Both the position numbers and the translations under genes were made by a program. A DNA stretch of 64,000 bases from Novosphingobium nitrogenifigens DSM 19370 (GTDB lineage: Bacteria > Pseudomonadota > Alphaproteobacteria > Sphingomonadales > Sphingomonadaceae). Positions within the stretch are counted from its first letter, which is position 1. Each line of letters begins with the position of its first letter. This document shows, in pieces, positions 1 to 20,557 of the stretch. The stretch spans positions 647,929-711,928 of the forward strand of contig NZ_GL876926.1 in NCBI RefSeq assembly GCF_000192575.1. Reading direction: 5' to 3'. The notes below the pieces were generated by a model. That model saw only the letters and a list, made by a program, of their open reading frames with translations, was not told the DNA's origin and did no database searches.

Positions 1-861
1 CAGTTGCTGGGACGGATGCCCGAGCCGATCCTGCCGGTTCTGGCCGCTCCCTTGCCGATGGTGCAGCAACGGTTGATGGAGCCGGTGCGGCATCGCGCCT
101 TGCTCGATCGGGTGGTAGAGGATCTGGCCTGCGCACTGGTCCGCAGGCTGGAGGAACAGGGGCAGGGGGCTAGGCGTCTCGATCTCGCCTTGTGGAAAGT
201 CGATGGCGATGTGCTGTTCCGTCGGCTCGAACTGGCTGCTCCCACGCGAGATCCGGCTCATATGACGCGGCTTTTTGCCGGGAAGCTCGACGATCTCGAT
301 GCCGGGTTCGGGATCGAGCTGGTGCGCCTTGCTGCGCCATGGGCCGAACCGCTGGCGCTGACCCAGTCCGATCTCGATGCCGCTGCCCAAACGCATGGGA
401 CCAGCCTTGCCGCCTGTATCGACCGGCTGAGCATGAGGCTGGGCGCAGAGGCAGTGCGTACACCCGTGCCCCATGCCAGCCACATGCCCGAACGGGCCCA
501 GCGCTGGGCCCCGCCACTCGGAAACGTCGCGCTGCAGGAAGGGCTGGAGAAGGGTATCGTGCCGTCCGGTCGCCCGCTCAAGCTGCTCGACCGGGCCGAG
601 CCGATCGCGGTGATCTATGAGGCACCCGACGGTTTGCCCCGCCTGTTCCGTTGGCGGGGACACGTTCACGAGATCGCCCGAGCCGAAGGGCCCGAACGGA
701 TCGCGCCCGAATGGTGGCGGGAAAAGGGTGGCGCACGCCTGCGCGACTATTACCGGATCGAGGACAGCGCCGGACGTCGCTATTGGATCTATCGTCGCGG
801 ACTGCCCGGGGATGGTCGCGGCGGCGCGCCCGAATGGTTCCTGCAAGGACTGTGTGCCTGA
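1..861 (+). CDS. imuB: ImuB, Y-family polymerase-like mutagenesis protein (3' end only)
   Basis: The reading frame is open from the first base, so the N-terminus lies outside the window and only about 286 C-terminal residues are present. The sequence resembles the C-terminal half of ImuB: a little-finger-like region, then a conserved tail with a Tyr-Tyr-Arg-Ile-Glu-Asp motif and a Trp-Phe-Leu-Gln-Gly-Leu ending. In the family, ImuB is a catalytically inactive Y-family polymerase relative that links the beta clamp to DnaE2 in SOS mutagenesis. DnaE2 is encoded about 3.4 kb downstream on the same strand, which supports the call. Unlike the compact imuA-imuB-dnaE2 operon of many alphaproteobacteria, three genes intervene here. 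The catalytic region cannot be inspected. Confidence 0.85.
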   Translation, partial: QLLGRMPEPILPVLAAPLPMVQQRLMEPVRHRALLDRVVEDLACALVRRLEEQGQGARRLDLALWKVDGDVLFRRLELAAPTRDPAHMTRLFAGKLDDLDAGFGIELVRLAAPWAEPLALTQSDLDAAAQTHGTSLAACIDRLSMRLGAEAVRTPVPHASHMPERAQRWAPPLGNVALQEGLEKGIVPSGRPLKLLDRAEPIAVIYEAPDGLPRLFRWRGHVHEIARAEGPERIAPEWWREKGGARLRDYYRIEDSAGRRYWIYRRGLPGDGRGGAPEWFLQGLCA

Positions 862-877
862 GCGGGATGGACCCGCT
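861..877 (+). terminator. Short hairpin at the imuB stop codon
   Basis: A 6-bp GC-rich stem (AGCGGG/CCCGCT, loop ATGGA) begins on the last base of the imuB stop codon. It has no U tract, so it may be only a weak terminator or a chance hairpin. It marks a plausible break between imuB and the genes downstream. Confidence 0.25.
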
Positions 878-1012
878 TGGTATAGCGGGCAGGATCATGG
901 GCCGTGTCTTTAAGGAGATTCCCTGAGGACGGGTTTCATGCCGTGCCAATCGTCGTCATGGCAGAACGGAGAAAGGGGACACAGTCAGGGCTGGAAAGCG
1001 AAGGAGCCTTCC

Positions 1013-1483
1013 ATGACGACGATTTCCGGCACGACCAGCGCCATCGGTGCCTTGACCAGCTATTACCGCTCGCTCACCACGGGAACTTCGACCGGCTCGG
1101 CATCCTCGGATGCCACGGCATCGACCGGGACGACATCGAACAGTTCGACGCTCGATAGCGGCCTGATTTCCCTGATCGAGGGGGCGGCGAGCAGCACGAC
1201 TTCGGCCGATTCGATTTCAACCTTGCTCGGCACCAGCAGCACCGACACCTTGTCGAGCCTGCTTGGCCTTTCGGGCAGTACGACATCGAGCAGCCTGTCG
1301 AGCTTTGGCACGACCAATTCGCTCCTGACCGCAGTCAGCGCCCTTGCCGGCGGTACGACGACGAGTACCACGTCTTCAGGCACCACGACATCGGGCACCA
1401 CCACGCAGCAGCAGAAGATCCTGAGCCTGCTGTCGGATGCCTATGCGGGCGAACAGCAGAACCTGATTTCCCTCCTGCTCTGA
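1013..1483 (+). CDS. Hypothetical Ser/Thr/Gly-rich low-complexity protein
   Basis: Codes for 156 residues. The ATG at 1013 is preceded at good spacing by AAGGAG (1001-1006), so this start is preferred over an in-frame ATG at 938. The protein is dominated by Ser, Thr, Gly, Ala and Leu, with alternating Thr/Ser-rich linkers and short Leu/Ile-rich stretches, and it ends in an amphipathic segment with Gln-Gln-Gln and a Leu-Leu-Leu terminus. I see no signal peptide, membrane helix, Cys or known domain. It sits alone between imuB and a LexA-boxed repair operon, with about 150 bp before it and 105 bp after it. The good ribosome binding site and biased composition suggest a real gene, but I do not recognise it and propose no function. 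It could be a secreted or self-associating protein. Confidence 0.6.
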   Translation: MTTISGTTSAIGALTSYYRSLTTGTSTGSASSDATASTGTTSNSSTLDSGLISLIEGAASSTTSADSISTLLGTSSTDTLSSLLGLSGSTTSSSLSSFGTTNSLLTAVSALAGGTTTSTTSSGTTTSGTTTQQQKILSLLSDAYAGEQQNLISLLL

Positions 1484-1553
1484 AGCGCTGCGGGCGCAGG
1501 GGGGCGTTTTTTCCTGAAATGTCCGGTCCGTCCATGCCTTGCCCCATTGGGCA

Positions 1554-1583
1554 TTGGCATTGGGCAGGATTGGAACATATAAG
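1554..1583 (+). promoter_or_regulatory. Candidate promoter of the radical SAM-udgX-dnaE2 operon
   Basis: TTGGCA at 1554-1559 could serve as a -35 element, with CATATA (1576-1581, spacer 16) or TATAAG (1578-1583, spacer 18) as the -10. Either choice puts transcription start within a few bases of the ATG at 1590, so the mRNA would be leaderless or nearly so. The -10 lies inside the LexA operator at 1573-1587, an ideal position for repression. The assignment is by eye only. Confidence 0.45.
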
Positions 1584-1587
1584 GAAC
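1573..1587 (+). promoter_or_regulatory. SOS box (LexA operator) GAAC-N7-GAAC
   Basis: The sequence GAACATATAAGGAAC exactly matches the alphaproteobacterial LexA consensus of two direct GAAC half-sites seven bases apart. It ends two bases before the start codon at 1590 and overlaps the likely -10 element and purine-rich region. The same arrangement occurs upstream of lexA in this window at 20543-20557. It implies that the radical SAM, UdgX and DnaE2 genes are induced together by DNA damage. Confidence 0.8.
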
Positions 1588-1589
1588 AA

Positions 1590-2837
1590 ATGGCGCAACT
1601 GACGACGCTCGAAAAACTGGCGATTCTGGCCGATGCGGCGAAATACGATGCCTCGTGCGCGTCATCGGGCACGACCCGACGCGACAGTCGCGGGGGCAAG
1701 GGGATCGGATCGACGCAAGGCATGGGGATATGCCATGCCTATGCCCCCGATGGGCGCTGTATTTCCCTGCTCAAGGTCCTGTTGACCAACCATTGCATTT
1801 TCGATTGCCACTATTGCGTCAATCGCAAGAGTTCGAACGTTCGCCGTGCCCGCTTTTCGCCGCAGGAAGTGGCCGACCTGACGCTCGCGTTCTATCGCCG
1901 CAATTATATCGAGGGCCTGTTCCTGTCCTCGGGGATCGTCAAAAGCTCCAGCCACACGATGGAGCAGATGATCGAGACTGCGCGTATCTTGCGCGAGGAA
2001 CATGGCTTTCGCGGCTATATCCATCTCAAGACCATTCCCGAAGCCGATCCCGAACTGGTCCGCCGTGCCGGGCTTCATGCCGATCGTGTCTCTATCAATG
2101 TCGAATTGCCGACCGAGGCTGGACTGGCGCGGCTGGCGCCGGACAAGTCGGCCCCGCGCATCGAAGGAGCCATGGGCTTGATGCAGGGTGCGCTTCTCGA
2201 AGGTCGCGATGCGCGCCGACGGTTCCGCCATGCGCCCCGCTTTGCGCCGGGCGGACAATCGACACAGATGATTGTCGGGGCCGATGCGGCCAGCGATGCC
2301 GACATCATCACCCGGGCGAGCACGCTTTACGACCGCTTCGCCCTGCGCCGGGTCTATTATTCGGCATTCAGCCCGATCCCCGATGCCAGTGCCGTCCTGC
2401 CGCTGCGGCGTCCGCCGTTGATGCGCGAACATCGCCTCTATCAATCGGACTGGCTCATGCGCTTTTACGGCTATGCGCCCGATGAAGTGCGCGCGGCAGC
2501 CGATCCTGCGGGCATGTTGCCGCTCGACATCGATCCCAAGCTCGCCTTTGCCTTGCGCTTTCGCGAGCAGTTCCCGGTCGATGTCAATCGTGCGCCTCGC
2601 GATCTCCTGTTGCGGGTGCCGGGATTGGGCGTGCGCGCGGTTCAACAGATCCTCTCCGCGCGGCGGCAACGGCGCTTGCGGCTGGAGGATCTCGCTCGCC
2701 TGACGGTATCGCTGACCAAGGTCCGCCCGTTCATCGTCGCGGCCGACTGGCGCCCGGTCCTGCTGACCGATCGGGCCGATTTGCGGCAGATCGTCGCGCC
2801 ACCGGTCGGTGAACAGCTTGAACTGTTCGGGCCATGA
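1590..2837 (+). CDS. Putative DNA modification/repair radical SAM protein
   Basis: Codes for 415 residues. The cluster-binding motif CxxxCxxC is at C69, C73 and C76, as expected for a radical SAM enzyme with a [4Fe-4S] cluster and S-adenosylmethionine. Near the C-terminus, a helix-hairpin-helix-like segment (RVPGLGVRAVQQI) suggests DNA contact. The protein matches my recollection of the family annotated as putative DNA modification/repair radical SAM protein, which is regularly linked to a DUF4130/uracil-DNA-glycosylase partner; that partner follows here with a 4-bp ATGA overlap. The ATG at 1590 is chosen because it follows the SOS operator directly; an upstream in-frame start at 1539 would place the operator inside the gene. 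The chemistry of the family is not established, so the substrate is unknown. Confidence 0.85.
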   Translation: MAQLTTLEKLAILADAAKYDASCASSGTTRRDSRGGKGIGSTQGMGICHAYAPDGRCISLLKVLLTNHCIFDCHYCVNRKSSNVRRARFSPQEVADLTLAFYRRNYIEGLFLSSGIVKSSSHTMEQMIETARILREEHGFRGYIHLKTIPEADPELVRRAGLHADRVSINVELPTEAGLARLAPDKSAPRIEGAMGLMQGALLEGRDARRRFRHAPRFAPGGQSTQMIVGADAASDADIITRASTLYDRFALRRVYYSAFSPIPDASAVLPLRRPPLMREHRLYQSDWLMRFYGYAPDEVRAAADPAGMLPLDIDPKLAFALRFREQFPVDVNRAPRDLLLRVPGLGVRAVQQILSARRQRRLRLEDLARLTVSLTKVRPFIVAADWRPVLLTDRADLRQIVAPPVGEQLELFGP

Positions 2838-4261
2838 ACGTCTCGGGACCGGCGCGGACTGTCTTTCTGGCTGCGCAAGATGATTTCGGCTTGTGGCGGG
2901 ATGCGGCCAGGGGATTGATCCAGGCCGGGATCGCGCCCGACCATGTTATCTGGCGCTTGCCGGGCGAGCATGTCGGCGATCTTTTTGCGGGCAGTTCCGT
3001 ATCGGAAGCTGGGGACGCCCTGCCGCAGGTGGCGGTCGATGCGCCGTCGCCGCGTGTCTCGCGTGCCTTTCTCGATCATGCCGCCCGCGCGGTGCTCCAT
3101 GCCGATCCGGGGCGGTTCGACCTGCTCTATCGCCTGCTCTGGCGGCTTCAGTCCGCACCCCGGCTGATGGAGGATCGCGCCGATCCCGACGTACGGCGGA
3201 TCGATGGTCTTGCCCGCGCGGTCGGACGCGACATCCACAAGATGCGCGCGTTCGTGCGTTTTCGCGAAGTCGCCGATGCGCAAGGTAGCAATCACTACGT
3301 CGCCTGGTTCGAACCGGCGCACCATATCCTCAAGGCCAATGCCGCCTTTTTCGTGCGCCGTTTCACGACGATGCGGTGGTCGATCCTGACGCCGCTCGGT
3401 GCCTTGCACTGGGATGGCGAAACCTTGCGCGAAGGACCTCCCGCGCAACGGGCCGATGCTCCCGGCGCAGATCCGGCCGAAGACCTTTGGCGCACCTATT
3501 ATGCCGCAATCTTCAATCCCGCCCGGCTCAAGGTTGGTGCCATGGTCAAGGAAATGCCGCGTCGGTACTGGAAGAATTTGCCCGAGGCAGCACTCATTCC
3601 CGAACTCGTCGCCACGGCACAGGCACGCGAGGCGGCGATGGTGGCGCTGGGGGGAAACGATGCGCCTCCCGCTCCGGAAACCCTGGCCGATCTAGAAGCG
3701 GCCGTCGGTGCTTGTCGGCGCTGTGCCATCGGTTGCAACGGCACCCGCGCGGTGGCGGGCGAGGGACCCGATCGCGCGCGGGTGATGATCGTGGGCGAGC
3801 AGCCGGGCGATTGCGAAGAACGCGACGGGCGTCCTTTCATCGGCCCTGCCGGACAAGTCCTGCGATCCTGTGCCGATGCGGCGGGGCTCGATCTGGCCTC
3901 CGTACGCCTGACCAATGCGGTCCGGCATTTCCGTTTCGTCGCACGCGGCAAGGTCCGGCTGCATCAAAATCCTTCGGCGCGCGAAATCGACACCTGCCGC
4001 TGGTGGCTCGATGCCGAACGCAGGATCGTAGCGCCCCGGCTGGTGCTGGCTCTGGGGGCAAGTGCGGCACGGGCAGTGCTGGGGCGCACGGTCGCGGTAC
4101 AAAAGGAGCGTGGGGTTTTCCTGCCGCTCGACGATGGGGCGGATCTGCTGATCACGGCTCATCCCAGCTATCTCCTGCGTCTGGGGGACAAGGCGCGCGC
4201 AGAGGAAGAGCGGCGCTTTACCGCCGACCTTGCCATGCTGGCGCGTCGGATCGCGGGGTAG
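2834..4261 (+). CDS. DUF4130 / UdgX-type uracil-DNA glycosylase fusion
   Basis: Codes for 475 residues in two parts. Residues 1 to about 270 match the DUF4130 DNA metabolism domain. Residues from about 290 onward form a uracil-DNA glycosylase of the UdgX group, with cluster-type cysteines C294, C297 and C301, the GEQPGD motif at 321-326, and HPS at 443-445. The loop histidine H377 lies in a KVRLHQ context matching the KRRIHQ loop of UdgX, where the His forms a covalent bond with uracil; it is conserved here. The gene overlaps the radical SAM stop by 4 bp (ATGA) and is followed 2 bp later by dnaE2, so the three are almost certainly one transcript. The expected role is recognition of uracil in DNA during the SOS response. 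How DUF4130 and the radical SAM partner contribute is unknown. Confidence 0.88.
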   Translation: MNVSGPARTVFLAAQDDFGLWRDAARGLIQAGIAPDHVIWRLPGEHVGDLFAGSSVSEAGDALPQVAVDAPSPRVSRAFLDHAARAVLHADPGRFDLLYRLLWRLQSAPRLMEDRADPDVRRIDGLARAVGRDIHKMRAFVRFREVADAQGSNHYVAWFEPAHHILKANAAFFVRRFTTMRWSILTPLGALHWDGETLREGPPAQRADAPGADPAEDLWRTYYAAIFNPARLKVGAMVKEMPRRYWKNLPEAALIPELVATAQAREAAMVALGGNDAPPAPETLADLEAAVGACRRCAIGCNGTRAVAGEGPDRARVMIVGEQPGDCEERDGRPFIGPAGQVLRSCADAAGLDLASVRLTNAVRHFRFVARGKVRLHQNPSAREIDTCRWWLDAERRIVAPRLVLALGASAARAVLGRTVAVQKERGVFLPLDDGADLLITAHPSYLLRLGDKARAEEERRFTADLAMLARRIAG

Positions 4262-4263
4262 TC

Positions 4264-7200
4264 ATGCCCGACGCGCCTTCCACTCCCGATCGTCGTCATA
4301 TCGATGCCGATCCCGGCCTTGCCGCTCCGCCGCGCGCGGAGTTCGTCGAACTCGGGCTGATGAGTTGTTTCTCGTTCCTGCGCGGGGCGTCGGATGCGGT
4401 CGATCTGGCGCTGACGGCACGGCGACTGGGGTATGACGCCATCGGCATTGCCGACGCCAACAGCATGGCCGGAGTGGTGCGTCTTCATGGCGAGGCGCGC
4501 GCCCTGCATCTGCGGCCGGTGATCGGATGCCGGATCGAAACGGTCGAGGGCCTGTCCTTCCTCGCCTATCCGCGCGACCGGGCTGCCTATGGGCGCTTGT
4601 GCCGTCTCATTTCGCTCGGGCGCATGGAGACGCCCGACGGCGAGTGGCAGGACAAGGGGCGTTGCCAGATCACGCTGCCGATGTTGTCCGATCAAGGGGA
4701 GGGCATTGCGCTTGTGCTGGTCCCCCCACGCGAACTCGACACGCAATTGACGATCCCGGTTGCCAGCAACGTCGTCGCTCTGGGAGAGAGCCGGGCGCCC
4801 TCCCTGATGCCTTTGTCCGCATCGTTTCCCGATCTTGTGCCCAGACTTGTCCACATCCTGCCGGGGATGCGCCACATCGCCGCCTGCTACCTTCATCGCG
4901 GGGATGACGTCGCGCGGATCAATGCGCTCGATGCCCTGACCCGGGCGAATGGGCTGGAATTGCTGGCAACCAACGACGTGCTCTATCACGAAGCGGCGCG
5001 GCGTCCCCTGCATGACGTCATGACGGCCATTCGTCATCGCACCACGGTCGCGGCGGCCGGGCATCTGCTCGAAGCCCATGGGGAACGCCATCTCAAGTCT
5101 CCGCAGGAAATGCAGCGCCTGTTCGATCGCTGGCCCCATGCGATCTCGGCGGCCCGGACATTGGCGGATGCCTGCACCTTTTCGCTCGATGATTTGCGGT
5201 ACGAATATCCGGAGGAAATCTGTCCGGAGGGGTGTGATCCGCAAGACTGGCTGGAGGAACGGACCTGGAGCGGGGCGGCGTGGCGCTATCCCGAAGGGGT
5301 TCCCGAAAGCGTCGCAGCCACGTTGCGGCGCGAACTGGCCTTGATCGGAAAGCTGCAACTGGCCACCTATTTCCTGACCATCAAGGACATCGTCGATTTC
5401 GCCCGCGGACAGGAACCGCCGATCCTGTGTCAGGGGCGCGGGTCGGCGGCCAATTCGGCGGTGTGCTATTGCCTTGGCATCACGGCCGTCGATCCGGCCA
5501 AGCACGCCCTGCTGTTCGACCGTTTCATTTCCGAAGAGCGCAAGGAGCCACCCGATATCGACGTCGATTTCGAACACGAACGACGCGAGGAAGTGATCCA
5601 GTACATCTATCGCCGCTATGGGCGCCGACGCGCGGGGCTTTGCGCGACCGTCATCCATTATCGCCCGCGCATGGCCATCCGCGAAGTGGGCAGGGCGATG
5701 GGGTTGACCGATGACGTCACCGGCGCGCTTGCCCGGACGGTCTGGGGCAGTTGGGGCAGCGGCCTTGCCGAACGGAACGTGGCGCAGGCCGGGTTCGACC
5801 TCGGCGATCCCCATTTGCGCCGCGTCTTGCGCCTTGCCGAACAGATGATCGGAATGCCCCGGCATCTGTCGCAACATGTCGGGGGCTTCATCCTGACGCA
5901 GGGGCCTTTGGTCGAGACGGTCCCGATCGGCAATGGCGCCATGCCCGAACGCAGCTTCATCGAGTGGGACAAGGACGACATCGACGCGCTCGGCATTCTG
6001 AAAGTCGACGTGCTGGCTCTGGGCATGTTGACGTGCATCCGCAAATGCCTCGACCTGCTCGAAGCGCATCACGGTCGCCCGCTCACGCTGGCCACCATCC
6101 CGCGCGAGGATCAGGCCGTTTACGACATGCTGTGCCGGGGGGATTCACTCGGGGTTTTTCAGGTCGAAAGCCGGGCGCAGATGAACATGTTGCCCCGCTT
6201 GCGCCCGCAGGAATTCTACGATCTGGTCGTACAGGTCGCGATCGTGCGGCCAGGCCCCATTCAGGGGGACATGGTCCATCCTTATCTCAAACGGCGGCGC
6301 GGTGTCGAAACGGTGTCGATTCCCGCGCCCGATCCCCGTCATGGACCGCCCGATGAACTGACCTCGATTCTCAAGCGCACGTACGGCGTGCCGATTTTTC
6401 AGGAACAGGCGATGAAGATCGCGCTGGACGCAGCCAAGTTCGACAGCGGCGAAGCCAATCGCCTGCGCAAGGCCATGGCGACGTTCCGCAGCCGGGGCAT
6501 GGTTCACGAGCTTGAGGAACTGATGGTCGGGCGCATGATCGCGCGCGGCTACGATCCCGAATTCGCCACGCGTTGTTTCAATCAGATCAAGGGGTTCGGC
6601 GAATATGGCTTTCCCGAAAGCCACGCGGCGAGCTTTGCCTTGCTGGTCTATGTGTCGAGCTGGCTCAAATGCCATTACCCTGCGGTCTTTGCCTGCGGAT
6701 TGCTCAATTCACAGCCGATGGGGTTCTATGCTCCGGCTCAGATCGTGCGCGACGCGCGCGACCATGGCGTCACCGTGCTGCCGGTCGATATCAATCACAG
6801 CGAATGGGATTGCACGCTCGAACAGGAGGGCGCAGCCTTGCGGCTCGGGTTCCGGCAGGTCGACGGCCTGGCCGAGCATCGGGTCGCGGCCCTGATCGCC
6901 GCGCGCCAGCATGAAGGCGCTTATGTCGATCTCGCCGATGTGAAGGCACGTTCGGGCCAGCCTCCGGCGATCATCGAGCGACTGGCGGCGGCGGATGCCT
7001 TCGGCTCGCTCGGGCTGTCCCGGCGTGAAGCCTTGTGGCAGGCGCGCAGCCTGATCGCGGCGCCCGAACTGCCGTTGTTTGCTGCAATGGGCGCCAGGGG
7101 GGAAGGGGCCGAAGCAGTGCAGGCGCGGCTTCCGGTCATGCCGCTCGCCGAGGAAGTCGTTGCCGATTACCAGACACAGCGTCTCTCGCTCAAGGCGCAT

Positions 7201-7632
7201 CCCATGGCGTTCTTGCGACCCGGTCTTGCCGAGCGTGGTTTCCTGCGTTCCTGCGACCTGCGCAATCGCAAGACGCGATCGATGGTCCATGTCGCGGGAC
7301 TGGTGCTGGTCCGTCAGCAACCGGGCAGTGCCAAGGGAGTCTGCTTCATCACGCTGGAGGATGAAACCGGGGTCATCAATCTGGTGATCTGGCCCGATCT
7401 CAAGGAGAAACAGCGCAAGACGGTCATGGGCGCGCGGTTGATGGAAGTGCGCGGACGGGTCGAATACGACGACGAAGTGATCCATGTCATCGCCGCGCAC
7501 ATGACCGATATCAGCCATGAACTGATCCGCCTGTCGGATGATCCTGTCGATCCGGCTCGTCCTGTGCCAGCTCCTGCTTCCGCGCATCCGCGCAATGTCC
7601 GGATCATCCCGAAATCACGCGATTTTCATTGA
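4264..7632 (+). CDS. dnaE2: Error-prone DNA polymerase III alpha-like DnaE2 (ImuC)
   Basis: Codes for 1122 residues. The N-terminal PHP domain begins with a degenerate ELGLMSCFSFLRGASD motif, typical of DnaE2 rather than DnaE1. The catalytic carboxylates are present: PDIDVDF at about 430-436 (D431, D433) and D582 in ILKVDVLAL. An OB-fold lies near residues 1008-1060. DnaE2 is the translesion polymerase of the ImuA/ImuB/DnaE2 mutasome. The ATG at 4264 is 2 bp after the udgX stop. The open frame continues far upstream, but that part lies over udgX in another frame and is not coding. By position it is co-transcribed with the radical SAM and UdgX genes under the LexA operator at 1573. It converges with the next gene at 15 bp distance. 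Confidence 0.95.
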   Translation: MPDAPSTPDRRHIDADPGLAAPPRAEFVELGLMSCFSFLRGASDAVDLALTARRLGYDAIGIADANSMAGVVRLHGEARALHLRPVIGCRIETVEGLSFLAYPRDRAAYGRLCRLISLGRMETPDGEWQDKGRCQITLPMLSDQGEGIALVLVPPRELDTQLTIPVASNVVALGESRAPSLMPLSASFPDLVPRLVHILPGMRHIAACYLHRGDDVARINALDALTRANGLELLATNDVLYHEAARRPLHDVMTAIRHRTTVAAAGHLLEAHGERHLKSPQEMQRLFDRWPHAISAARTLADACTFSLDDLRYEYPEEICPEGCDPQDWLEERTWSGAAWRYPEGVPESVAATLRRELALIGKLQLATYFLTIKDIVDFARGQEPPILCQGRGSAANSAVCYCLGITAVDPAKHALLFDRFISEERKEPPDIDVDFEHERREEVIQYIYRRYGRRRAGLCATVIHYRPRMAIREVGRAMGLTDDVTGALARTVWGSWGSGLAERNVAQAGFDLGDPHLRRVLRLAEQMIGMPRHLSQHVGGFILTQGPLVETVPIGNGAMPERSFIEWDKDDIDALGILKVDVLALGMLTCIRKCLDLLEAHHGRPLTLATIPREDQAVYDMLCRGDSLGVFQVESRAQMNMLPRLRPQEFYDLVVQVAIVRPGPIQGDMVHPYLKRRRGVETVSIPAPDPRHGPPDELTSILKRTYGVPIFQEQAMKIALDAAKFDSGEANRLRKAMATFRSRGMVHELEELMVGRMIARGYDPEFATRCFNQIKGFGEYGFPESHAASFALLVYVSSWLKCHYPAVFACGLLNSQPMGFYAPAQIVRDARDHGVTVLPVDINHSEWDCTLEQEGAALRLGFRQVDGLAEHRVAALIAARQHEGAYVDLADVKARSGQPPAIIERLAAADAFGSLGLSRREALWQARSLIAAPELPLFAAMGARGEGAEAVQARLPVMPLAEEVVADYQTQRLSLKAHPMAFLRPGLAERGFLRSCDLRNRKTRSMVHVAGLVLVRQQPGSAKGVCFITLEDETGVINLVIWPDLKEKQRKTVMGARLMEVRGRVEYDDEVIHVIAAHMTDISHELIRLSDDPVDPARPVPAPASAHPRNVRIIPKSRDFH

Positions 7633-7647
7633 TTGCAGAGAGGCGGT

Positions 7648-10305
7648 TCAGGCGCGCAGGCGTTCGATCCCTTGCGCCAGGACGACGTAGAGCTTGCCCA
7701 TGTCCGAGGAAAGCAGCGTCACCCCCAGCGCATTGCCGTCACGGGTCGACAGCAACTGCCGCAGCATGGATTCGAAATCGTGGATGTAGCGGTTCACATG
7801 CGTCCGGAAATCGGCGTCGTTTTCGTAATGCTGCTGCACGAGACGCGCTTCGCTGTTTTCCAGCAGCGACACTGCGCGGCGGGTGAAAATGCCGCGTTCG
7901 CCGCGCAGATACGACGCCCATGCGCTTTCCGACACTTCCTGCGACAGGATGCGGGTGATGTCGATCGCGGTCGAATTGAGGCTTTCGGTGATGATCGCCG
8001 TGCGCCGGGCAAAGTCGCTGTCGACTTTCTCCTCTGCCTTTTCGCGCGCGCGGCTGACCCGGTTTTCGAGATTGCCCGCCAGTTCGTCGATCTTGGCGAG
8101 CTGGTCGCGCAATTGCACGGCGGTTTCGCGCGCCGAGCTGGCGGCATTGTCGATCGCTTCCTCGAGCCGGGCGATCATTTGCGCTCCGCGACCCTGGATC
8201 GCGCGGGCGAGCGCCGTGCTGGTTTCCTCACCCAGACGATCGGCCATGGCGCTGATTTCTGAGGCGGTTTTGGACGAAAGATCGCTTCCGGTGCGGACGG
8301 CGGCGGTTTCCAGTTCGGCAATCGCCCCGGCAAGACGCCGTTCGATGCTGCCGGTGACCAGATCGCTTTCGGTCTGGGTCGCGCGCAAGGCATCGCGCAG
8401 GCCGGACAGGCGTTGTTCCTGTTCGTCGGCACGGGCCAGCAGGGTTTCGTTGGTGCGCACGATTTCGGCAAATAGCACGCCCAGTCGGTCCTGTGTCGTG
8501 CCGACGTCTCCCGCCAGTGTCCGCCCGGCGTCTCCCGCTTCGCGCAAAGTGTCGCGCAGGGCGACGACGCGGCCTTCGACTTCTCCCAGCCCGGCCGAGG
8601 CACTGCGGAGAGCTTCGGGCAATTGGGTACGGGTGTGTTCGCCCGCCGCCTCGATCAGTTCGAGCAGGCGCACCGCGCCATCGGTCAGCGAAGTGACCGT
8701 GCGGTCGGTTCCGTTCAAGGCCTCGCGCGTGCCGTTGAGGCGGGCATTGAGCGTTGAAACCGCAGCATCGACAATCGCTGCCGTGCGCGATCCTTCTTCG
8801 CTCGAACTCGAAATGACCGACGCTAACCCATTGATTCGCGTGACAAGAACGTCGCAAGTGCGCGCCAGCGTCTCGATGTTCTCGATCTGGCGTTCGTGCT
8901 GTTCCTCGATACTGGCATCGACGACGGCAAGGCGCGCATCGAGCGTTTCGGCAACGTCGGCTGCTGCTGCGGCAAGAGCGGCACGCCTTTGGCCGATGGC
9001 GGTGTCGAGCGTTTCGAGTTGCGAGCGAAACGCCTCGGCCATCGAGGCCATGGTCGTTGCCAGGGCTTCGCGCCGGGTGCCCATGGCCGCGTCGATATGC
9101 CCGGCTTCTTCGGACAGCGTGCGGTTCAAGGCACGCACATCTTCTTCGAAACGGGTCAGGCGATGACGGGATGCGCTGACAAGGCTGTCGTGATCGCGCC
9201 CGACTTCGTCGATGGCAACGGTCAGCGCCGATGCCACGCGCCGCATTTCCCCCTCGAAGGTCGCGATGCGGCGGGACAGCGCGGCAATGCCGTCTTCCTC
9301 GGCGCTCACGATGACTTCGCGCTGGGCCGTGATTTCCCCGGCCAGGGTTTCGGCGCGGGTGCGCATGGCGGCCAATGCGGCCTGTTCTTCGGACTGGAGG
9401 CGATTGCGCAGGGAATCGAGCGACAATGTCACTTCGCGCAGGCGATCTTCACCCAGACGCCCGATACGGTCGCTGGCGTCGGCAAAGGCCGTCAACGCGG
9501 TTTCTACCTGCCGCTTCACTTCGTCGACCTTGCGCCCGCTGGCCACGCCAAAGTCGTTGAGGCGATTGAACCCGGCGATCAGGTCGTTGAGCTGAACGTC
9601 GGCAGTGCGTCCGCTGGTGGCGATCGCATTGGCAAGATCGCGCGCCGAAGCCGTTGCAGTTGGCATGTTGGAATTGATATTTTCGAAATTATCCAGCGCC
9701 TTGCCAAGCACGGTTCCGATGTTTTCGACTTCCCTTTGCTTGTCGGAAATGAGCGCTCTGAGTTCCCCGGCACTGGTCGTCAGCCGTTCGACCGTCGTGC
9801 GACCCAGTGCATCGAGGTCCTGCGACTGTGTCTCGATCAAGGCGTGGGCCTGCGCCAATTCGCGATTCATCGACGACAGGCGTTCCTCGAGCATGCGGCT
9901 GTCACGCGCGAGCGCAGTCGAAACCCGTGCATAGCGGCTCGCCTCGCGCCACGAGGTGCGGGTCAGCAGAAGAAGAACAAGAACGAGTACGACCGGCAGG
10001 GCCCAGGCGGCAATGAGGTCGGCAAGCGTCGCGGCATCGAACGATGCTGCGAAAAAGCGCCGCTTTCCAAAGGCGAACAGGATCGTCCAGCCCAGAATTG
10101 CAAGTCCGGCAGCGATTGGAATGATCCGTCCGAATCTCGGGACAGGCGCCACTTCGTAAGTCTCGTCTTCGCCGGTCTCATCTGTCGGTTCGAGCACCGG
10201 TTCAGGAAATGCCGGGGGGTTGGGAACAGACGTATCGGACGCGCGGGCCTCCGCGCTGTCGCGTGAGCCGCCGTCTAGCGCAACTATGCGAGGTACCCCG
10301 TTCAT
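7648..10305 (-). CDS. Large membrane-anchored coiled-coil protein of unknown function
   Basis: Codes for 885 residues. An acidic, Pro-rich N-terminal 55 residues is followed by two predicted transmembrane helices at about 61-79 and 93-115. The rest, roughly 650 residues, is rich in Ala, Glu, Arg, Thr and Leu with heptad-like spacing, consistent with long coiled coils on one side of the membrane. The last 100 residues look globular (SEVSESAWASYLRGERGIF onward). I see no catalytic motif. The organisation recalls conserved sphingomonad membrane proteins of unknown function; apolipoprotein-like or methyl-accepting-like matches would be expected from coiled coils alone and should not be trusted. 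It is divergent from the Hpt-like gene at 10378, with 72 bp between starts. Confidence 0.8.
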   Translation of the reverse strand: MNGVPRIVALDGGSRDSAEARASDTSVPNPPAFPEPVLEPTDETGEDETYEVAPVPRFGRIIPIAAGLAILGWTILFAFGKRRFFAASFDAATLADLIAAWALPVVLVLVLLLLTRTSWREASRYARVSTALARDSRMLEERLSSMNRELAQAHALIETQSQDLDALGRTTVERLTTSAGELRALISDKQREVENIGTVLGKALDNFENINSNMPTATASARDLANAIATSGRTADVQLNDLIAGFNRLNDFGVASGRKVDEVKRQVETALTAFADASDRIGRLGEDRLREVTLSLDSLRNRLQSEEQAALAAMRTRAETLAGEITAQREVIVSAEEDGIAALSRRIATFEGEMRRVASALTVAIDEVGRDHDSLVSASRHRLTRFEEDVRALNRTLSEEAGHIDAAMGTRREALATTMASMAEAFRSQLETLDTAIGQRRAALAAAAADVAETLDARLAVVDASIEEQHERQIENIETLARTCDVLVTRINGLASVISSSSEEGSRTAAIVDAAVSTLNARLNGTREALNGTDRTVTSLTDGAVRLLELIEAAGEHTRTQLPEALRSASAGLGEVEGRVVALRDTLREAGDAGRTLAGDVGTTQDRLGVLFAEIVRTNETLLARADEQEQRLSGLRDALRATQTESDLVTGSIERRLAGAIAELETAAVRTGSDLSSKTASEISAMADRLGEETSTALARAIQGRGAQMIARLEEAIDNAASSARETAVQLRDQLAKIDELAGNLENRVSRAREKAEEKVDSDFARRTAIITESLNSTAIDITRILSQEVSESAWASYLRGERGIFTRRAVSLLENSEARLVQQHYENDADFRTHVNRYIHDFESMLRQLLSTRDGNALGVTLLSSDMGKLYVVLAQGIERLRA

Positions 10306-17485: not shown

Positions 17486-19825
17486 ATGGCAGAACAGGCA
17501 AAAGCCTTATCCACCGTTGGGGTTGACAGCGCCGATCGGACCGGGACTCAAGACTCCGATCCGGGTCGGCTTGGCGGCCCTTGCGGCAGTTTGAAGCGAT
17601 TGTCCAGTGTGCAGCGCACCATTGAGCAATTCGTCGAGGGTCGCCCCTTTGAAAGGGGGCCGTGGCTGGTCGTGGGCTTTGGCGCGGGGATCGCGGCATG
17701 GGCGATTTTGCCCGGTCCATGGCAATGGTGCGCGTTTCTGGCCGCCTGCACGGCCGCAGCTGCGCTGGCGCCGCTCTTTGCTCCAGAGGGGAAGGGTGAC
17801 CACACTCGGCACGCCATCTGGGGCATGGCCCTGATGCTGGCGGCCGGATGCGGCGTGATCTGGGCCAAATCGGTTCTGGTCGGGCGTCCGGCCATTGCGC
17901 ATCGCGAAGTCGTCATGGTGAACGGGCGTATCGTCGATCGCCAGGACGAAGGGGCGGAAGGACGTTTGCGACTCGTCCTGCTGGCCCGGATCGAAGGCGA
18001 ATCGCAGCCGACCACGATACGCGTGACTTTGCCCGAAACTTCGGACCAGCCCCAGCTCGTCGTGGGAGCCATGATTGCGGCCCGGGCGCGCCTTGTTCCG
18101 CCATCACCGCCGATGCTTCCGGGGGGTTATGATTTTGCCAAAACGGCGTGGTTTCAGGGGATTGGCGCGACGGGGTCGATTCTGGGGGACGTCACGGTGC
18201 TGAGCCCGGCGGGGCCGGTTCCCTCACTTCGCCGGGTGCAAGACGCGCTCGCCCGGCATGTTCTTGCGCAATTGGGGGGATCGCCCGGCGCGATTGCGGC
18301 GGCTCTGGCAAGTGGCGATCGCGGCGCGATTGCGCGCGAGGACGAAGACGCGATGCGCGACGCCGGATTGACGCATTTGCTCTCGATCAGCGGCCTTCAC
18401 GTCAGTGCCGTGATTGCCGGTGTCTATTTCCTGACCATTCGTCTGCTTGGATTGTTCCCCTGGATCGCCTTGCGGGTCCGGCTTCCGGTCGTTGCCGCTG
18501 CCGCCGGGGCAACGACGGGTATCGCCTATTGCCTTGTCACCGGATCGGAAGTGCCGACGGTACGATCGGTGGTCGGCGCCTTGCTGGTTCTCGGCGCGCT
18601 GGTGCTCGGGCGGGATCCCTTGTCCTTGCGCCTGCTCGCGGTCGCGGCATTCTTTGTCATGCTGTTCTGGCCCGAAGCCGTCCTGGGGCCGAGTTTCCAG
18701 ATGAGTTTCGCGTCGGTCATGGCGATCATCGCGGTTCACAATGCCGCGCCGGTGAAGCGGTTCCTGGCAAAGCGTGATGAAGGTCGCCTCATGCGCCTGC
18801 TGCGGGAAACGGCCATGTTGCTGGCAAGCGGCGTGGTGATCGAATTGACGCTTATGCCGATTGCCTTGTTTCATTTCCACCGCGCAGGGATTTACGGCGC
18901 CTTTGCCAATCTCGTGGCCATTCCGCTGACGACTTTCACGACTATGCCCGCGATCGCGCTTGCCCTGGTGCTCGATCTTGCCGGGCTTGGGGCGCCGGCA
19001 TGGTGGGTGACGGGAAAGTCGCTCGAAGCCTTGCTGTGGCTCGCACACATCACTGCCACGATGCCCGGTGCAGTCACGATGATGCCGACGATGCCGGGCT
19101 GGATTTTCGGGATTATGCTGGCCGGGCTGCTCTGGCTTGGCCTGTGGAGCGGGCGCGTACGGCTTTGGGGGCTGTTGCCGGTGGCTCTGGGATGTGCGGT
19201 CTATGCCGGAGAGCGGGCGCCCGATGTCCTGATCTCAGGGGACGGGCGCCATGTCGGGTTGACGGGGCTGGGGCCCGACCTTGTCGTCCTGCGACCGGGG
19301 CGCGGCGGTTACGCGCGGGAAGCGCTGCTGGAAAGCGCAGGCATGTCGGGGGACGTCCGTTTGCTGGAGGACTGGCCCGGAGCCCGCTGCAACGTGGCCT
19401 TTTGCATGGTGCGGTTGGCGCGGGGAGGGCGTTCCTTCGCCCTTCTGTTCGCGCGGGGAACCGGTCTGGTCGATATAGACCAACTCGAGGCGGCTTGCGC
19501 CGCGAGCGACATCGTCGTTGCCGACCGTCGCCTTCCCCAAGCCTGCCGACCCCGACTGCTCAAGGCCGATCTCGGCTTGCTCGAACGGACCGGCGGTATG
19601 ACGATCGACCTCGTTTCCGGTCGTATCCATACCGTCGCCGAAAATCGGGGTGAGCATCCGTGGGTGCAGCAAGCCGGGATCTTTGGCGCGCCCCATGGCG
19701 GGCCCGCAGTTGATCGGGACGGAGCGGGCAACCGAAGTGGGGGGCGAGACGGGGAGAACGGGGCAGGGGGCGTGGATCCCGACTGGATACCGGTCACGCC
19801 ATCTCCTGCCGTTCCCGTTCAGTGA
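17486..19825 (+). CDS. comEC: ComEC/Rec2-family DNA uptake membrane protein
   Basis: Codes for 779 residues from the ATG at 17486. It has an N-terminal pair of membrane helices and a soluble OB-like DUF4131 region. The multi-helix Competence domain follows, containing the diagnostic [18 protein letters not shown] near residues 297-314, and then further helices up to about residue 570. The C-terminal 200 residues occupy the place of the metallo-beta-lactamase-like domain, but I do not see a HxHxDH metal motif, so that domain appears degenerate, as in many alphaproteobacteria. ComEC forms the inner-membrane channel for transforming DNA. The stop overlaps the convergent lexA stop by 7 bp. An in-frame start at 17450 is less likely because it would overlap gltX. 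Confidence 0.9.
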
Positions 19826-20505
19826 TAGCGGCGCAGCAATCCGGCCAGCTTGCCCTGAACCTGCACGTCGTTCGGGGTGTAGAACTGGGGGTCGTAAGCC
19901 GCATTGGCCGGATCGAGGCGGATCATGCCTTTTTCCCGGCGCAGATATTTGAGCGTTGCTTCTTCCCCGCGAACGAGTGCGACGACGATTTCCCCGTCGC
20001 GCGCCACTTCGGTGCGGCGGATCAGGGCCAGATCCCCGTCGAGAATGCCCGCATCGACCATCGAATCGCCCGAAACCTCAAGCGCATAGTGCTCGCCGGG
20101 GCCCAGCAGGGCGGCCGGAACGGGCAATGTCGCGCTGCCCTCGAGCGCCTCGATCGGAGCGCCTGCGGCAATGCGGCCGTGGAGCGGTATCTCGATCACG
20201 TCGTTGGCCGCTTCGGGGGCGACGAAAGGAGGGGGCGGCGGTGTCGGCGCAGGCTTTGTCGCCACCCTGGCAGCGCCACGCGGGCTCGCCGTTTCGGGTT
20301 CGCGGATCACTTCGAGAGCGCGTGCCCGATTGGGCAGGCGGCGAATGAAGCCGCGTTCTTCCAAGGCGGAAATCAACCGATGGACACCCGACTTCGATTT
20401 CAGATCGAGGGCGTCCTTCATTTCCTCGAACGAGGGGGAAATGCCGGATTCTTCCAGCCGGTTCTGAATGAAAGTGAGAAGTTCGTGCTGCTTTCGCGTC
20501 AGCAT
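19819..20505 (-). CDS. lexA: LexA, SOS repressor
   Basis: Codes for 228 residues. The winged-helix DNA-binding domain starts [10 protein letters not shown]; a Pro/Ala-rich linker follows; the autoprotease has the Ala114-Gly115 cleavage site (RIAAGAP), nucleophile Ser148 (GDSMVD) and Lys186 (ATLKYL). The start at 20505 is chosen to match the family; an in-frame ATG at 20571 would lie upstream of the operator. A GAAC-N7-GAAC operator is 38 bp upstream, consistent with autorepression. The same operator type precedes the radical SAM-udgX-dnaE2 operon in this window. It is convergent with comEC. Confidence 0.97.
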
Positions 20506-20542: not shown

Positions 20543-20557
20543 GAACGAATGCGGAAC
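20543..20557 (-). promoter_or_regulatory. SOS box of lexA
   Basis: On the minus strand GTTC-CGCATTC-GTTC is the alphaproteobacterial SOS operator. The proximal half-site is also one arm of an 18-bp palindrome, GTTCACATCCTTGTGAAC (20529-20546). The operator follows directly on the -10 element, as expected for lexA self-regulation. Confidence 0.88.

Follow-up and report, generated by a model that had tools for sequence, protein, structure and literature searches.

The 64-kb stretch of the Novosphingobium nitrogenifigens DSM 19370 genome studied here (G000:C2:647929-711928, referred to as the window) contains a radical SAM (rSAM) gene, a gene for a DUF4130-UdgX fusion and dnaE2, encoding an error-prone DNA polymerase, one immediately after the other behind a single LexA-type operator. 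This raises the question why an rSAM/UdgX pair and a polymerase should be joined. The three genes are predicted to form one SOS operon in which dnaE2 is likely transcribed from the rSAM promoter, and we regard this reading as probable. The joining is most likely due to shared induction and not to an obligatory reaction chain from rSAM via UdgX to DnaE2. The elements are:

1573..1587, forward strand: LexA-type operator GAAC-N7-GAAC, GAACATATAAGGAAC, by direct reading; conserved at the gene front in relatives
1590..2837, forward strand: rSAM gene, TIGR03916 by family model; ATG at 1590, two bases past the operator
2834..4261, forward strand: DUF4130 (TIGR03915) fused to UdgX (TIGR03914) by family models, here called udgX
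4264..7632, forward strand: dnaE2, error-prone DNA polymerase NF004225 by family model

Direct reading confirmed the layout given in the initial annotation: a perfect GAAC-N7-GAAC sequence two bases before the rSAM ATG, an overlap of 4 nucleotides (nt) between the rSAM and udgX reading frames, and a spacing of 2 nt between udgX and dnaE2. Family membership of the rSAM protein follows from a score of 559.5 bits against TIGR03916 (cut-off 343.5). The udgX product reached 276.6 bits against TIGR03914 (cut-off 189.95) and DnaE2 1372.9 bits against NF004225 (cut-off 939).

The operator motif is not rare. Two copies were found in the window against 1.89 expected, and 135 genome-wide compared with 108 for a reversed control pattern; motif counts were therefore dropped as evidence. 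As far as can be judged from sequence comparison, the significance of the operator lies in its position and conservation. The second copy in the window fronts lexA, so that both copies are located at SOS-type genes:

19819..20505, reverse strand: lexA
20543..20557, forward strand: second GAAC-N7-GAAC of the window, 37 nt before the lexA ATG; it reads GTTC-N7-GTTC in the direction of lexA

GTTC-N7-GTTC is also present upstream of recA of the same genome (C2:147145-148104).

Conservation was assessed by scoring boxes in both orientations from -150 to +60 of the rSAM start, while the imuA and dnaE2 fronts of the 40 loci collected through dnaE2 (see below) were scored forward only. Loci came from the best 80 of 595 confirmed rSAM matches (the genome_contigs set, mostly named Sphingomonadales) and from a class survey, in which eight of 144 genomes exceeded the TIGR03916 cut-off and the seven besides our own were used, five of them outside the family of the window. 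In a phylum survey 397 genomes yielded 103 above the cut-off, and 88 of these lay outside that family (53 of the same class, 35 not); 60 loci were taken from the 88, one or a few per genus (36 of the same class, 24 not). Further, 21 plasmid loci were taken of 158 records, picked for different genera. Protein searches with rSAM and udgX (about 8000 candidates each, 120 close ones listed) were kept out of the counts. Among phages, 10 records had an rSAM match, none at ≥60% identity.

GAAC-N7-GAAC stands at the front of the rSAM gene in 144 of the 147 loci from alphaproteobacteria; it is in forward orientation in 136 and in reverse only in eight. These comprise 78/80 loci of the genome_contigs set, 7/7 of the class survey, 16/16 plasmid loci, 35/36 of the phylum survey and 8/8 loci found through dnaE2 (see below). 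In the genome_contigs set the 78 boxes fall between positions -150 and +30 relative to the rSAM start, 65 of them at -17 or -18. The non-alphaproteobacterial Pseudomonadota carry CTGT-N8-ACAG instead, in 23 of 26 rSAM loci (24 genome loci and two Caballeronia plasmids). None of these 26 had the alphaproteobacterial motif, and none of the 147 had CTGT-N8-ACAG. Outside gene fronts, the background per 210 bp was 0.0049 for the forward motif, 0.0025 for the reverse and 0.0011 for CTGT-N8-ACAG. We take the two sequences to be the LexA motifs of the respective groups. A clade-specific box at the promoter that is kept in orthologues, as expected for a LexA regulon, is thus what the comparison indicates, and it supports the prediction of one SOS-type operon made in the initial annotation.

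The orientation of the scan mattered. A forward-only scan left nine of 39 alphaproteobacterial loci boxless, and a one-mismatch scan in the same orientation rescued none. Once both orientations were scanned, eight of the nine proved to carry the motif reversed, as GTTC-N7-GTTC. This reversed box (L187, L216, L226, L227, L228, L240, L241 and L249) begins between 14 and 90 nt upstream of the nominal start. In the Caballeronia plasmid loci L180 and L185 the beta/gamma LexA motif (CTGTATAAATATACAG and CTGTATAAACATACAG) begins 20 nt before the rSAM start, at the gene front where alphaproteobacteria have GAAC-N7-GAAC.

The position of the operator relative to the promoter can be predicted from the same alignments:

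1554..1559, forward strand: predicted -35 element, TTGGCA (5/6 match)
1578..1583, forward strand: predicted -10 element, TATAAG (5/6 match), inside the operator; the spacer is 18 nt here and the predicted transcription start is 1590

When 93 boxed of 95 loci (80 genome_contigs, seven class survey, eight split) were aligned on the box, T was found at -18 relative to it in 82 loci, G at -16 in 83 and C at -14 in 63. The mean match to TTGACA was 3.71 of 6 at register -18, as compared with 1.44 over all registers. The best -10 register was +5, inside the box, with a spacer of 17. A start 7 nt past this -10 element would be at +17, which in 66 of the 93 is also the position of the first in-frame start codon. 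Alphaproteobacteria outside the family had a forward box in 47 of 56 loci; there too, register -18 was best over all 47 (2.21), and the match rises to 3.05 in the 22 loci with a start at +16 to +18. At imuA boxes (n = 63), the -35 and -10 elements lie two bases further upstream, with a spacer of 17. Because of this conserved geometry of -35, -10 and start codon, the mRNA is predicted to start at the rSAM ATG and to be leaderless. Both the overlap of the operator with the -10 element and the likely leaderless mRNA had been proposed initially, and the conserved geometry supports these predictions. Among the 78 boxed loci of the genome_contigs set, about 12 have the box at -28 to -56 from the nominal start (some starts are unsure), which would result in leaders of roughly 11-25 nt or more.

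What was joined to what becomes clearer from the upstream region, as the window starts inside imuB and imuA precedes it with a box of its own. In the coordinates of locus L112, window base 1 corresponds to position 10001:

1..861, forward strand: 3' part of imuB, with DUF6504 and IMS_C
L112 8596-9363, forward strand, upstream of the window: imuA, by gene order and sequence features
L112 8536-8550, upstream of the window: LexA-type box of imuA, GAACATAATAAGAAC, 45 nt 5' of the imuA ATG

The region thus represents imuA-imuB-dnaE2 with rSAM-udgX between imuB and dnaE2. We take the first gene to be imuA from gene order and sequence features rather than from a family model; it overlaps imuB at the chosen imuB start. 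All three genes of the cassette are present within about 9.1 kb. They do not form a single contiguous operon behind one LexA box, as rSAM-udgX and a second box intervene.

The order rSAM-udgX-dnaE2 was found in 26 of 70 scorable loci of the genome_contigs set (44 without, the remaining 10 of the 80 being unscorable). In 25 of the 26, imuA-imuB was also present upstream, and 25 of the 26 imuA copies found in the 80 loci had their own forward box. The udgX-dnaE2 gap is -1 to 14 nt in 21 of the 26, while the imuB-rSAM spacing ranges from 41 to 2819 nt (27 relatives). With dnaE2 as the starting point, a sample of 40 loci was drawn within the family from the 89 of 99 genomes over the cut-off, roughly in score order and with preference for roomy contigs, and thus not at random. 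Of these, 32 had imuB directly before dnaE2 and eight were split, with imuA-imuB followed by rSAM-udgX-dnaE2; no intermediate arrangement occurred among the 40. Of the 32 imuB-dnaE2 loci, 31 have a forward box some 2.1-2.4 kb upstream, at the beginning of imuA (L158 has none; an imuA match is missing in L132 and L141). All eight split loci have two boxes. Outside the family, neither dnaE2 downstream nor imuB within 4 kb upstream was found in any of 65 rSAM loci (60 genome, five plasmid; only about 2.5 kb downstream for L245). The insertion of rSAM-udgX between imuB and dnaE2 was thus observed in a single group, made up of Novosphingobium and Erythrobacteraceae. In the rest of the family the rSAM-udgX and imuA-imuB-dnaE2 modules occur separately and are boxed individually. 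A tree was built from 67 dnaE2 rows, of which 35 were split and 32 canonical (split locus L067 was lost at the score filter). On it the split label required three changes compared with a shuffled mean of 22.4, and none of 500 shuffles was as low, indicating that split rows cluster. In this group the polymerase gene of a split mutasome would now belong to a second, independently controlled SOS-type operon.

The partner that accompanies rSAM most regularly is DUF4130. Outside the family, it was found beside rSAM in 63 of 63 genome and plasmid loci labelled as alpha- or non-alphaproteobacterial Pseudomonadota. UdgX, in contrast, was missing from the matches in 17 of 64 rSAM loci outside the family, 14 of which are still boxed. 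In the Pseudomonadota loci examined DUF4130 is therefore the constant partner and UdgX is optional. Whether or not UdgX is present, the pair follows the LexA motif of its host group in these loci. This speaks for an activity that resides in rSAM-DUF4130 and responds to DNA damage.

The rSAM protein has its CX3CX2C motif at residues 69-76, with C69, C73 and C76 present in all 177 aligned sequences, as expected for the cluster motif. A second near-invariant set of cysteines (C23, C48, C57) occurs in 176 of the 177. A helix-hairpin-helix (HhH) match at residues 329-360 remained below threshold. As with the radical SAM DNA repair enzyme spore photoproduct lyase (SplB), DNA is the proposed target of this protein, and passages of PMC3765255 describe DUF4130 as associated with SplB-like radical SAM proteins and uracil-DNA glycosylases (UDGs). 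It differs from SplB by the DUF4130 partner and the second conserved cysteine set, and no spore photoproduct lyase was among the matches listed (two lists of 50, one of 20), the rSAM model being of low confidence (mean predicted local distance difference test score 65.8). Of 87 loci, 16 have a hemerythrin-like gene between rSAM and udgX, assigned to PF01814 by a family test of two copies (L047, L049, L057, L059, L060, L069, L074, L085, L088, L090, L092, L097, L104, L110, L111 and L127); none of these is dnaE2-linked. As a guess, its product might sense oxygen or iron for the two Fe-S proteins next to it.

In the UdgX part, the GEQPG motif and a His at residue 377 are invariant in 38 aligned sequences, in keeping with the UdgX family, and His 377 aligns with H109 of Mycobacterium smegmatis UdgX (alignment to PDB 6iod). 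That enzyme excises uracil and captures the abasic site covalently. Our protein differs from it by the N-terminal DUF4130 fusion, and also departs from the loop KRRIH and motif B HPS(S/A)(L/V)(L/V)R as given in PMC10359453, having KVRLH and HPSYLLR. In alignment A2 most rows have KRRIH or KRRLH, and most have Tyr or Phe in motif B. As the family score was reached despite these mismatches, we consider the protein a divergent UdgX member for which covalent capture is putative. The structure matches listed for the fusion cover the UDG part, and a Pfam search up to an E-value of 10 gave DUF4130 alone.

Several explanations of the locus have to be weighed against a shared SOS operon. That the operator is a chance match appears highly improbable: 1.89 matches are expected per 64-kb window, but the box stands at the gene front in 144/147 alphaproteobacterial loci, another LexA motif takes its place in 23/26 non-alphaproteobacterial ones, and the background is 0.001-0.005 per 210 bp. 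The initial annotation had gone further than co-regulation and suggested that uracil or a modified base is recognized and processed, with DnaE2 then copying past it. Cast as one biochemical pathway, UdgX or rSAM would carry out the recognition and processing, DnaE2 would bypass what results, and the operon would have been selected for this coupling. The tight gaps (-1 to 14 nt in 21/26 linked loci) and the persistence of the arrangement throughout one group of the dnaE2 tree speak for such a pathway, as does a suggestion in part of PMC8565304 that SOS-controlled UDGs handle errors of SOS-induced error-prone polymerases. However, dnaE2 is not beside the rSAM-udgX pair in 44/70 scorable loci and in 65/65 outside the family, being attached in one group only; the modules carry separate boxes when apart, and UdgX was not found in 17/64 loci outside the family. 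The comparison supports a single operon but lends the pathway little support, because the constant partner of rSAM is DUF4130 and not UdgX; we consider the pathway unlikely.

Alternatively, the rSAM promoter might not serve dnaE2, which would then have a promoter inside udgX or be uncoupled altogether, with its adjacency a neutral insertion. Gaps of 104-622 nt between udgX and dnaE2 in five of 26 linked loci would fit, and in two of the eight split loci (L152, L160) a forward GAAC-N7-GAAC is present about 1.1 kb before dnaE2, within rSAM-udgX. Against this, the eight split loci have no forward box within about 1.1 kb of dnaE2, and the imuA promoter is kept from dnaE2 by an imuB-rSAM gap of 0.04-2.8 kb plus the inserted pair. 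Without read-through dnaE2 would therefore probably lose SOS control, and we judge this alternative very unlikely. Transcription of dnaE2 from the rSAM promoter as part of a shared SOS operon remains the preferred reading, and the following points weigh against it. Read-through is deduced from a 2-nt gap that the five loci with wide gaps do not share. An internal dnaE2 promoter was probed only by a consensus scan of 800-7700, which found no promoter and also missed the proposed rSAM promoter, presumably because the last -10 base was fixed as T. Boxes of the tested motifs are lacking in 3/147 alphaproteobacterial and 3/26 non-alphaproteobacterial loci, and in all three plasmid loci from other phyla (Bacteroides, Acetoanaerobium, Gemmatirosa). 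The counts are of loci, not of independent events, because the loci are related and some possibly belong to the same species. In the dnaE2 tree, starred branches force at least two changes and the canonical rows L147 and L149 are nested in the split group, so that a single gain requires a later loss; the absence of a TIGR03916 match from G155, the source of L147, in the phylum survey fits loss of the inserted pair. Finally, some Novosphingobium loci are not split, for example L044 and L088.

On the shared-operon reading, LexA bound at 1573-1587 would cover the -10 element, and its RecA-triggered self-cleavage would permit transcription from the A of the rSAM ATG or a position close to it. The transcript would run through udgX, with likely translational coupling at the 4-nt overlap, into dnaE2, while imuA-imuB would be released simultaneously from their own upstream box. 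The rSAM protein and DUF4130 may form the core unit acting on damaged DNA, by radical chemistry and HhH contact with DNA. The fused UdgX would excise uracil and might stay covalently on the abasic site like its M. smegmatis counterpart, and DnaE2 together with ImuA-ImuB would copy past remaining lesions. The attachment of dnaE2 would place the polymerase under the damage switch of the repair genes. Since dnaE2 is located behind a promoter other than that of imuA, the split mutasome provides a natural experiment on whether DnaE2 needs co-transcription with ImuA-ImuB.

We take COG4277 to be equivalent to TIGR03916. The initial annotation had called the rSAM/UdgX pair conserved but uncharacterized, which holds in part, as SOS control has already been reported for some groups: a portion of PMC8565304 predicts it for the UDG two-gene system COG1573-COG4277 in Bacteroidetes and cites reports for Verrucomicrobia and Alphaproteobacteria. 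Similarly, a section of PMC3828012 treats CAC3343-CAC3344 of Clostridium acetobutylicum, an rSAM and an unknown protein, as putatively LexA-controlled. Both systems share with ours a radical SAM repair-type protein, a downstream partner and LexA-type control. Compared with the UDG/COG4277 operon, our locus has dnaE2 attached, and in the Pseudomonadota loci examined the near-universal partner is DUF4130, UdgX being optional. The imuAB-dnaE2 cassette of Caulobacter is described as SOS-controlled in part of PMC1839093. Gene order and LexA-type boxes are the same here, the differences being that rSAM-udgX splits imuB from dnaE2, that there are two boxes instead of one, and that dnaE2 stands behind the rSAM promoter. 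Our literature search found no paper joining UdgX with dnaE2 and none joining UdgX with radical SAM; an account of UdgX chemistry in PMC10359453 calls its precise physiological role largely unknown.

With these comparisons a vague neighbourhood link between radical SAM and UDG becomes a testable regulon claim. The part most worth testing is rSAM-DUF4130 as a near-constant SOS member across the examined Pseudomonadota loci. A wider proposal is tentative and, taken as a whole, doubtful: rSAM-DUF4130 may be a core damage-induced repair enzyme of Pseudomonadota that kept SOS control across the change of LexA motif from GAAC-N7-GAAC to CTGT-N8-ACAG. It might use two Fe-S clusters (CX3CX2C and C23/C48/C57) for radical, possibly sulfur-transfer, chemistry on a DNA lesion, with UdgX fused as a trap for a uracil-like product. 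In one lineage dnaE2 would then have been captured, so that repair and bypass are expressed from one leaderless SOS transcript.

A further open frame between imuB and the operator is of doubtful status:

1013..1483, forward strand: Ser/Thr-rich open frame of 156 residues, doubtful gene

It was rejected as an operon member, having two weak relatives in a protein search and no tblastn match in 80 loci. A PADLOC search gave no match to a defence system, and window positions 1-10000 gave no Rfam match at gathering score.

LexA-type boxes were also observed before other open frames of the genome. Those at L116 (box C2:1342209-1342223) and L113 (box C2:5778-5792) precede frames that resemble uvrA and an SRAP (DUF159) gene, which we take as candidates only. 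At L252 (G000:C2:797389-797733) a weak RecA-like match of 28.4 bits, below the cut-off, has GTTCGCGTAATGTTC about 230 nt upstream, and this could be another ImuA- or SulA-like gene.

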